Positions 13,316-33,409 of a stretch of DNA of 33,409 nt are shown here, in pieces. The notes under the pieces were generated by a model. It saw nothing but the letters and a program-made list of their open reading frames with translations. It was not told the DNA's origin and ran no database searches. The position numbers and the translations under genes are program-made. The DNA comes from Xenococcaceae cyanobacterium MO_188.B32 (GTDB taxonomy: Bacteria; Cyanobacteriota; Cyanobacteriia; Cyanobacteriales; Xenococcaceae), in contig JASJDJ010000071.1 of assembly GCA_030065635.1 (NCBI GenBank), positions 1-33,409 of the forward strand. Reading direction: 5' to 3'. Positions within the stretch are counted from its first letter, which is position 1. The number at the start of each line of letters is the position of its first letter.

Positions 13316-13374
13316 ATCCTCCTACGCTGACTCCTTCGGAGTACAGACGTAGGCTTCCAATTCTCGCGAATTGG
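13316..13374 (-). ncRNA. Hairpins at the 3' end of the tnpB remnant (right end / omega-RNA-like)
   Basis: Two strong stem-loops abut. In 13321-13353 the arms CCTACG (13321-13326) and CGTAGG (13348-13353) enclose CTG/CAG and a tight ACTCC-TTC-GGAGT stem. In 13357-13374 CCAATTC pairs with GAATTGG around TCGC. They overlap the end of the tnpB reading frame, which is where IS605-type elements have their right-end hairpin and the omega-RNA scaffold. Whether a guide RNA is still made is unknown. Confidence 0.45.
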
Positions 13375-14035
13375 CATTTCTGGATCGGCACTTGTCTAGG
13401 CACAAGACCCCCGACAGTACGCCATTACCAGACAGTTTCCTTTCCCGACAGTCCATCGGTACTACACTGTTTAAACCTCGTTGAAGAATTACTCGACCAC
13501 TAGCATGATCGCGACTTGTACTATACCCACATTCATCACAGACATGAACTCTTTCAGTGAGTTCTTTCTTACCCGTATGAGTGCCACATTCTGGACAAAT
13601 TTGACTGGTGTACTTGTGGTCAACTTGAGCAAAGTACTTGCCACGTTTCCAACATACCCAAGACAACAAGTCACGGAACTGACCAAATCCACCGTCGAGC
13701 ATTTCTTTACCAAGAAAACCCCTGGCAGTCATTTTAAAGTTGATATCCTCAGCAAAAATCATGTCCGCCCGATCGCAGAGAAGATGGCTAGTTTGAAAGT
13801 GAAAATTCTTGCGAGTATTAGAAATTTGATGGTGGAGTCTAGCAACTTTAAGCTGTGCTTTCTCCCAGTTTTTTGACCGTTTATTTTTGCGAGATGCTCT
13901 CCGTTGCAGCACTTTAAGCCTACTTTGGAGTTCTCGGAAAAACTTAGCGGGTTCGACTCGGAAGTTGTCGCTAGTCACCAAAAACGATTCCAGTCCGATA
14001 TCTATTCCGATTCCTCGACCAAAAGGTACGGGGTC
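13322..14035 (-). pseudogene. tnpB: 5'-truncated tnpB (IS605/IS1341-type RNA-guided nuclease remnant)
   Basis: The minus-strand frame gives 219 codons from the TTG at 13981. It reads open further upstream to about 14035, adding the RuvC-I strand GIGIDIGLESFLVT. All three RuvC acidic positions can be seen: Asp in GIDIG, Glu in IFAEDINFK, and Asp in TSRDHASG. The zinc finger CPEC...CDEC lies between the last two. A stop lies in frame just above the RuvC-I strand, and no WED/REC half is found. About 170-200 N-terminal residues of a normal 370-400 residue TnpB are therefore missing. No TnpA transposase is nearby. It is an inactive relic between the polysaccharide and pix operons. Confidence 0.8.
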
Positions 14036-31226: not shown

Positions 31227-32003
31227 CTATGCTGCCTTGGTTCCAAGGGATTTACAGTATTTGCCCATCAAACAGGTAATCTCCTCGGGAGTCTGAGCAA
31301 AGTAGAGGAGTCCAGAGTCTACCTGTTGAATCAAATCAGCAAATTCCGGTAAGTGACGCAGATGAGTACTCCGCTGTTTGAGCTTTTTCCACAAGAATTC
31401 AATGGGATTAAAATCGGGAGAGTAGGAAGGCAATTGAAAGATACTTAGCCGCTGTGAGTGTTGCTCAAAAAAGTTGTCCATGGCCCGGCTGGTATGATAT
31501 CTAGCTCCATCTTGAATGATAATCAAGTGTTGTTCTCCTGTCTGTGAGAGAACTTCACTCAAGAATTCTTGGTAGCTTTGGGAATTGAAGCGACCTGTAT
31601 GAGCCTTGTAGAAAAAGCGGCCCGAACGATAGTCAATCAAACCAAACACCTTGTAAGCTTTGCGTTTGCCACTGGTCTTGATAGTCGGTTGTTGACCTTT
31701 GAGTGCCCAAGTGTAACTTAACGACCCCCACTGTGCAAAACTGGCTTCATCCCCAAACAGAATGCGGGCTTTTTTCTCTTGGGCCTGGCGCAGAATTTCC
31801 GGCCATTTTTCCTCCATCCATTCTGTTCTTTTTTCTTCGTTGAGATGATCGCAAACAAAACGAGCTTTCTGAAAAGAAAATCCCAGATTCCTCAACAGAG
31901 TGCTGATATAGTGAGGATGATAGCAAACCCCAAAGCGCTTCTCAATCAAGTCTTGCACCATCAAAGCACTCCAACAGGCACACTCATATCCGGCTTTGAG
32001 GGG
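31227..32003 (-). pseudogene. 5'-truncated IS630-family transposase
   Basis: The minus-strand frame is open from 32003 (just after a TGA) to the TAG at 31227-31229 and gives about 258 codons. The ATG at 31961 or TTG at 31964 is only an internal codon. The DDE catalytic core is complete: Asp in ILFGDEASF, Asp in LIIIQDGARYHTS, and Glu in DFNPIEFLWKKLKQ. The open part starts in PLKAGYECACWSALMVQDLI, normally the middle of the protein. The N-terminal helix-turn-helix DNA-binding part (roughly 80-100 residues) is missing. Its place is taken by the palindromic repeats at 32010-32122. The element should be immobile on its own. Confidence 0.82.
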
Positions 32004-32009
32004 TCATTT

Positions 32010-32132
32010 GGCGATCGCCTTTTACCCAGTTGGCGATCGTAAAAACCCCAAAAATTAGTTTTTGGCGTACGCCAAAACCCCAAAAATTGATATTCGAGCG
32101 GATTTTGGCGCTCGCCAAAATCCCCAAGACTA
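32010..32132. repeat. Cluster of TTTTGGCG-CGCCAAAA palindromes with CCCCAA tails
   Basis: Three related units lie in tandem. They begin at 32031 (TGGCGATCGTAAAAACCCCA), 32063 (TGGCGTACGCCAAAACCCCA) and 32106 (TGGCGCTCGCCAAAATCCCC). The second has a perfect 18-bp palindrome, TTTTGGCGTACGCCAAAA (32060-32077). The third has 10-bp arms GATTTTGGCG/CGCCAAAATC (32101-32122) around CT. A GGCGATCGCC palindrome containing HIP1 sits at 32010-32019. Only the central dinucleotide (AT, TA, CT) changes. The array replaces the 5' end of the IS630 transposase. Confidence 0.8.
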
Positions 32133-32167
32133 TACTACAGAGCATATGACAACTTGACGTGCGGAAG

Positions 32168-32386
32168 ATGGGTTCAAGACTCAGTGAGAATGTATTGTTT
32201 TGGATTTCTATAGTCTTATTTCCCTCAATTTTAATCTTAGTTTTGTTAACTTTTTTGCTGATTCACTCATGGTTTATTCTGCTTGATCCTTCAACGAAAT
32301 TTGGTTTTATTATTAACAGCTCATTTTTCATTATTTTTTATTGGATGAGTTTTAGCTATTATGGCTCTACCGAACTTCAAATGTAA
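32168..32386 (+). CDS. Small two-helix membrane peptide, C-terminus altered by a MITE
   Basis: This 72-codon frame from ATG 32168 encodes a hydrophobic peptide with two likely membrane helices (VLFWISIVLFPSILILVLL and FIINSSFFIIFYW). A GTG at 32159 is in frame, with no strong ribosome site. No family is recognised. The last seven codons (GSTELQM) and the stop come from the inserted 188-bp element starting at 32363. Removing the element and one target copy would place TAG (32559-32561) immediately after SYY, giving a 65-residue ancestor. The coincidence with a clean stop supports this being a real, formerly shorter gene, but short hydrophobic ORFs can arise by chance. Confidence 0.45.
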   Translation: MGSRLSENVLFWISIVLFPSILILVLLTFLLIHSWFILLDPSTKFGFIINSSFFIIFYWMSFSYYGSTELQM

Positions 32387-32558
32387 AACTGTTAGAAACT
32401 AGAAGCTAAAAGTCTTATCCAGCAAGTGTTTTACTCTTTTTCTATTGCATTTTGAGTATTTTAGGCAGCGATCGCTGCCTAAATCCTTTATAGATCAATG
32501 GTTTCGCAGGATTAGAGCCCGTTAAGTTACATCTTAAGTTCGGTAGAGCCGCTATTAT
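32355..32558. mobile_element. 188-bp MITE with ISL3-like ends and 8-bp target duplication
   Basis: The element spans 32363-32550. Its ends are perfect 15-bp inverted repeats, GGCTCTACCGAACTT (32363-32377) and AAGTTCGGTAGAGCC (32536-32550). The match extends inward for another 9 positions with 7 identities (to 32386 and 32527). It is flanked directly by GCTATTAT at 32355-32362 and 32551-32558, an exact 8-bp target site duplication. ISL3-family insertion sequences have ends starting GGCTCTT and 8-bp duplications, so an ISL3-type transposase is the likely mobiliser. No transposase gene is inside. Confidence 0.85.
32460..32483. repeat. Perfect 24-bp palindrome in the centre of the MITE
   Basis: Arms TTTAGGCAGCGA (32460-32471) and TCGCTGCCTAAA (32472-32483) are perfectly complementary and enclose a HIP1 octamer (GCGATCGC). 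It could fold as a terminator-like stem followed by a short T-containing tract. It lies near the middle of the inserted element. Confidence 0.75.
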
Positions 32559-32654: not shown

Positions 32655-33409
32655 ATGACTCGTTCTCGATTCTTCCACACTTCTTTCTTCTTGGTGTTTG
32701 CTGCTCTTTATTATGTGTTAGACAGCAACGTGTATGCTCAAACAGACATTTCTGCAAGAAATCCAAGAACAATTGAGACTTACGAGAAACTTATCACTAG
32801 AGAGGACGGAGTTCCCTTATTTGGAATTTTTGAAAAGCTATTTTCAATTTCTGGAGGAGGGTCAAACCCCTACACGAGTGTTGAAGCCAAAGCAGAGCTC
32901 ATAAGCCCAAGCGGTAAAAGAGCAACGAGCCCACTTTTCTGGAACGGCGGAAAAACCTTCGGTCTTCGATTTTCTCCAAACGAGAAGGGACTGTGGTCGT
33001 TCAATGTAACTTCAAACGACAGTGGACTTGACGGTCAAAAAGGTCAGTTTCAAGTTACTTCGTCCTCAAATAAAGGAAGTATAGTGCCAATGAAGGAAGC
33101 TCCCTACCACTTTCAATACGAAAATGGAGAACCATTTTTCTTTTGGGGTGAAACCGCGTGGGCTGGTTTCATAAACACAAGCAAACAAAACAATCGTTCC
33201 AGATTTTTTGACTACGTAGATGTCCGAGCCGCTCAAGGATATAATGTTATGACCCTTCAAGCGTACGGAAACGCTGGAACTAGAAACGAAGGAGGAGAGC
33301 CATTTACAAATTTTAGCAATGAAATTATTAACGTTGATTATTGGAAGGAAGTAGATAAACGCATTGAATATATCGGGTCGAAAGGAATAATTTCCTGGCT
33401 CTATATGAT
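32655..33409 (+). CDS. Secreted DUF5060/DUF4038 (apiosidase-like) putative glycoside hydrolase, 3' end missing
   Basis: This frame is open from ATG 32655 to the window end (251 codons) with no stop. Residues 1-29 form a signal peptide (FFHTSFFLVFAALYYVL, cleavage likely after VYA). A DUF5060-type beta-sandwich follows (about 35-145): NPYTSVEAKAELISPSGK, SPLFWNGGKTFGLRFSPNE and KGLWSFNVTSNDSGLDGQ. A short linker, YHFQYENGEPFFFWGETAW, then leads into the DUF4038 (beta/alpha)8 domain with VRAAQGYNVMTLQAYG. Related proteins are extracellular glycosidases, including GH140 apiosidases. The catalytic acids lie beyond the window. Codon choice (frequent AAC, TTC, CTT, GGA) differs from upstream genes and no HIP1 sites occur, suggesting transfer. 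Confidence 0.8.
   Translation, partial: MTRSRFFHTSFFLVFAALYYVLDSNVYAQTDISARNPRTIETYEKLITREDGVPLFGIFEKLFSISGGGSNPYTSVEAKAELISPSGKRATSPLFWNGGKTFGLRFSPNEKGLWSFNVTSNDSGLDGQKGQFQVTSSSNKGSIVPMKEAPYHFQYENGEPFFFWGETAWAGFINTSKQNNRSRFFDYVDVRAAQGYNVMTLQAYGNAGTRNEGGEPFTNFSNEIINVDYWKEVDKRIEYIGSKGIISWLYM

Follow-up and report, generated by a model that had tools for sequence, protein, structure and literature searches.

The locus considered here raises the question of whether a small mobile element, inserted at the 3′ end of a gene, has replaced the stop codon of that gene with one of its own. The window, meaning the whole stretch of 33,409 nucleotides that was analyzed, is contig 47 (C47) of a draft genome of 281 contigs. 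The first half of the question is answered by the element itself, a family of copies, their target duplications, and cognate full elements in relatives. On the whole, the element is very probably a nonautonomous MITE of the ISL3 family, inserted in trans beside an open frame that does not appear to be a gene.

A family of 188- and 163-bp elements with target duplications

The element occupies positions 32363 to 32550 on the plus strand and has no noteworthy coding sequence of its own. Both of its 15-bp ends match GGCTCTACCGAACTT with 0 mismatches, and its terminal inverted repeats, the left at 32363 to 32386 (plus strand) and the right at 32527 to 32550 (minus strand), are perfect over those 15 nt and 92% complementary over 24 nt. 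On either side lies one copy of the target duplication GCTATTAT (32355 to 32362 and 32551 to 32558, no strand assigned), with 0 mismatches over 8 bp. An earlier note on this DNA had described a 188-bp element with perfect 15-bp inverted ends and an exact 8-bp target duplication, and every measured detail of that description was borne out.

A DNA search of the genome with the element gave 14 matches, 3 of which hit the internal palindrome in the opposite orientation, leaving 11 loci; the further copies with the same ends for which the earlier note had advised searching are thus present. Seven copies retain both ends, two of 188 bp (the window copy and C130) and five of 163 bp (C27, C63, C79, C149, and C167). 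A perfect 8-bp target duplication flanks six of the seven; at C63 there is none, with 8 of 8 bases differing. The copy on C280 is interrupted by the contig end, and those on C13, C76, and C86 each lack one end. Given this recurrence, together with the perfect duplications at six of the seven two-ended copies, the element is beyond what chance would produce. It also has the features of a MITE, being short in both length classes, devoid of a transposase, and present in several copies with inverted ends.

The same DNA search found the element in 10 of 39 other genomes, and the members of the family come from a Xenococcaceae-like genome as well as from MAGs assigned to Xenococcaceae, Pleurocapsa, and Prochloraceae. 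Across all fetched loci, 18 distinct two-ended copies were counted (140 to 230 bp long, with no more than 2 mismatches in either end). Among these, the target duplication is perfect in 10, has two mismatches in 1, and has at least three mismatches in 7. The 8 of 18 copies without a perfect duplication count against the insertion account.

One might ask whether the element has instead been kept for a function, for instance as a transcript terminator or an RNA hairpin. It folds strongly (z-scores of −6.0 and −6.8), and it carries a 24-nt perfect palindrome, TTTAGGCAGCGATCGCTGCCTAAA (32460 to 32483, no strand assigned), that is terminator-like by a simple scan, giving one such site where 0.2 would be expected. 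However, long inverted ends suffice for folds of this kind, the palindrome is found in the 188-type copies and is missing from the 163-bp copies, and a comparison with Rfam gave no match in the window. We therefore regard a retained function as improbable.

Related genomes carry full ISL3 elements whose ends match

If the MITE belongs to the ISL3 family, full elements with the same ends should encode an ISL3 transposase. Such elements were found in relatives, with a length of about 1.4 kb and a DDE_Tnp_ISL3 domain, and together with the further copies they support the name "ISL3-type MITE" that the earlier note had given. One, in a genome of the same order (G035), is 1,427 bp long, has the exact 15-nt left end and a single mismatch in the right end, and is flanked by the target duplication ATATATTC; its ISL3-like transposase frame contains one internal TAA. 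Its likeness to the window copy continues beyond the 15-nt end, with 86% identity over the first 36 nt. A second, of 1,405 bp (G021), is flanked by AAAAATAA and has a 417-amino-acid frame without stops, the product of which matches PF01610 (DDE_Tnp_ISL3) at 2.3e-68 as well as Zn_ribbon_ISL3 and HTH_Tnp_ISL3.

When the first piece of the G035 transposase was used as a query, 18 of 60 genomes were matched at an E value of 1e-20. The transposase led to 30 loci. At 12 of them, paired ends lie 1.0 to 2.2 kb apart, with up to 4 mismatches allowed per end; the other 18 show no two-ended element. Five of the 12 (in G035, G021, G051, and G058, and on C368 of G040) are flanked by a perfect 8-bp duplication. 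The 24- to 26-nt ends of the full elements in these five genomes resemble those of the window copy, with 18 to 23 of 26 positions identical to its left end and one end at 17; unlike the MITE, they carry a transposase and are about 1.4 kb long. Matching ends, 8-bp duplications, and a DDE_Tnp_ISL3 transposase are all found in this lineage.

Duplications of 8 bp are known from other IS families too, and the element could in principle be a MITE of one of these (for example, of the IS66 or IS1380 type), with its likeness to ISL3 ends arising by chance. Since the full elements bearing such ends encode ISL3 transposases, and since the likeness extends over 36 to 46 nt at one end, we consider this extremely improbable.

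Within the genome itself, a family search gave 11 PF01610 matches. The G035 protein has three matches there, of which those on C134 and C2 contain stops and that on C117 is open for 263 amino acids with its N-terminal part missing. On C101, a remnant ISL3 transposase, reduced to its 3′ part and containing two stops, is joined to the end GGTTCTACCGAACTT. No intact cognate transposase was seen in this draft genome, in which several of the matches run into contig ends. An element of another ISL3 subgroup in this same genome, 1,640 bp long (C255, at L031:296-1935) and flanked on both sides by AAAACATT, was rejected as the parent: its transposase is broken over several frames and its ends are less similar, with 3 mismatches each. 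Among nine named records matching the first 39 nt of the MITE, none had a transposase in the stretch examined. The full elements share only end sequence with the MITE, so that each is at most a candidate for its direct parent, which counts against the account given here. It seems likely that the MITE was moved in trans, through its terminal and subterminal sequences, by an ISL3-family transposase with a DDE domain.

Elements of this kind have a precedent in cyanobacteria. Passages of a study of Microcystis aeruginosa PCC 7806 describe a 187-nt MITE that is flanked by 8-nt direct repeats and shares its ends with ISL3-family elements (PMC11448079). According to these passages, that MITE is nearly equal in length to the one in the window, its ends likewise start with GGCTCT, and it is accompanied by full ISL3 elements whose ends match. 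The Microcystis inverted repeat differs in being 9 nt long and imperfect (GGCTCTTCG). There, the MITE cuts real genes (sbp and livG), whereas the frame in our window is doubtful. A literature search for an ISL3-family MITE with 8 bp and terminal inverted repeats returned none.

Age of the insertion and empty sites

The earlier note had taken the perfect ends and target copies as signs of a recent event. The argument from the ends is weakened by comparison with the siblings. The window copy differs from C130 at 5 of 188 positions, from C280 at 4 of 138, and from C13 at 3 of 114, and all three of these 188-type copies differ from it at positions 14, 17, and 18 of the left arm, with C at position 14 in each. 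Four of the 163-bp copies (C63, C79, C149, and C167) likewise have C at position 14; C27 also has C there but deviates by a T at position 13. The perfect 15-bp match is thus peculiar to the window copy and is no sign of recency. The perfect target duplication is compatible with a recent insertion, without dating it.

An empty site in a relative, which the earlier note had proposed looking for, was not found for the window locus; a search with the flanks in 27 genomes of the family returned only copies of the element and short matches. Two other loci were considered as clean empty sites and rejected, because in both the congener G001 aligns on one flank only. At C167, G001 lacks the element and aligns to 3 nt before the junction; at C149, it lacks the element and aligns from 17 nt before the junction. 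If a 188-bp copy and one target copy are removed from C253 of the relative G004, DKANNLEKAITYFNRALQV comes to stand beside RADNLEKALSYFNNVLKV and a TPR-like frame regains its repeat pattern across the junction; that frame contains additional stops as well.

The small open frame and a second repeat

What, then, of the frame into which the element reads? It is a hydrophobic open frame of 75 codons (32159 to 32386, plus strand), ending in SFSYYGSTELQM followed by TAA, and its last seven residues are GSTELQM. Read in phase 0 from its first base, the left end of the element gives GGC TCT ACC GAA CTT CAA ATG TAA, which is GSTELQM and a stop, so that any frame entering in this phase would be closed after seven codons. 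When the element and one copy of the target duplication were removed in a script, TAG followed directly after SYY. The stop-codon arithmetic of the earlier note, in which a TAG was replaced and GSTELQM added, is therefore formally right, both by translation and by the scripted removal.

The claim that this frame is a small membrane-peptide gene fared less well. The frame has its start within one repeat and its stop within another. Upstream of the MITE, positions 32000 to 32172 (plus strand) hold the right-hand portion of a repeat from a second family, with the right end TTGACGTGCGGAAGATGGG and the left end missing. TTGACGTGCGGAAGATGGG or close forms of it occur at 23 genomic sites when up to 2 mismatches are allowed (the reversed control gave 0), the 173 bp of this segment align with two other copies at 88 and 91%, and in each copy shown the sequence diverges directly after GATGGG. 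From these observations, the GTG at 32159 and the ATG at 32168, the start codons of the frame, both lie inside the end of the second repeat. Beyond the repeat, the first in-frame codon of the three usual start types is a TTG at 32195.

It is still conceivable that the frame is a real gene for a membrane peptide, with its stop replaced by the MITE and the GSTELQM tail gained, and several observations fit this. Besides the arithmetic, the composition is hydrophobic and resembles that of transmembrane segments, the codon score is the highest of the six frames and is reached by 13 of 2,000 shuffles (0.65%), the frame is free of stops in only 403 of 20,000 shuffles (2%), and the TTG could serve as a start outside the repeat. 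However, the codon score is 0.018, below the 5th percentile (0.090) of the genes in the window, which average 0.190 (89 pieces of 12 window frames served as reference). No match was found in 26 other genomes of the family, and no Pfam match at an E value of 0.01. Three weak matches (E values of 0.001 to 0.01) and no credible homologue turned up among 290 other genomes of the order; two of the three, looked at in context, lie over or against other frames and were discounted, and the third is L109. Neither conservation nor a start codon of its own was found for the frame, the TTG at 32195 being a possible start. We therefore consider a real gene rather unlikely; the frame is probably not a gene, and presumably it yields no product.

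A bolder idea is that an ISL3-type end in phase 0 (GSTE, with a stop soon after) serves as a portable module of C-terminal tail plus stop codon, tolerated at the ends of genes, with the small membrane peptide as a living example that owes its start to one repeat and both tail and stop to the other. We think this very improbable.

The surroundings contain other traces of mobile DNA. The second repeat family has the ends CCCA..TTCCGCACGTCAA and TTGACGTGCGGAA..TGGG; five inspected copies measure 144, 144, 177, 219, and 219 bp, and in two of them a 6-bp direct repeat (GTATGA and TTAATA) was seen by eye. Beside the second repeat, on the minus strand at 31227 to 31964, is a transposase-like frame with DDE_3 and HTH_33 domains, seemingly cut at its N terminus and presumably of the IS630 type. 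A frame at 13322 to 13981 (minus strand), with a CPECG motif, we take by eye to resemble a TnpB/OrfB fragment. Downstream of the MITE, after 104 bp, begins a frame with DUF5060 and Apiosidase-like domains (32655 to 33407) that runs off the window.

Very probably, then, the MITE entered a stretch already rich in the remains of mobile elements, among them a truncated frame for a DDE transposase and a piece of a different repeat. A staggered cut of 8 bp at insertion would have duplicated GCTATTAT. By chance of phase, a TAG stop would have given way to a seven-codon tail and TAA, in a frame that was probably no gene to begin with.

That a small mobile element can supply C-terminal codons and a stop has been seen in other bacteria. 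In Coxiella burnetii, QMITE insertions extend EnhC (PMC5896051), and in another case RU-1 lies at the end of ECA3499 (PMC2759123). The host genes there are recognized ones, with tails of 33 and 34 to 35 residues, compared to 7 here. Both the kind of MITE and its stop-supplying effect are already known; the element in the window adds one more member.

Our findings add a cyanobacterial family of ISL3-type MITEs in two length classes. They also call for caution in reading such loci, in that a gene altered by an insertion can be mimicked by a frame with its start and its end in two different repeats.
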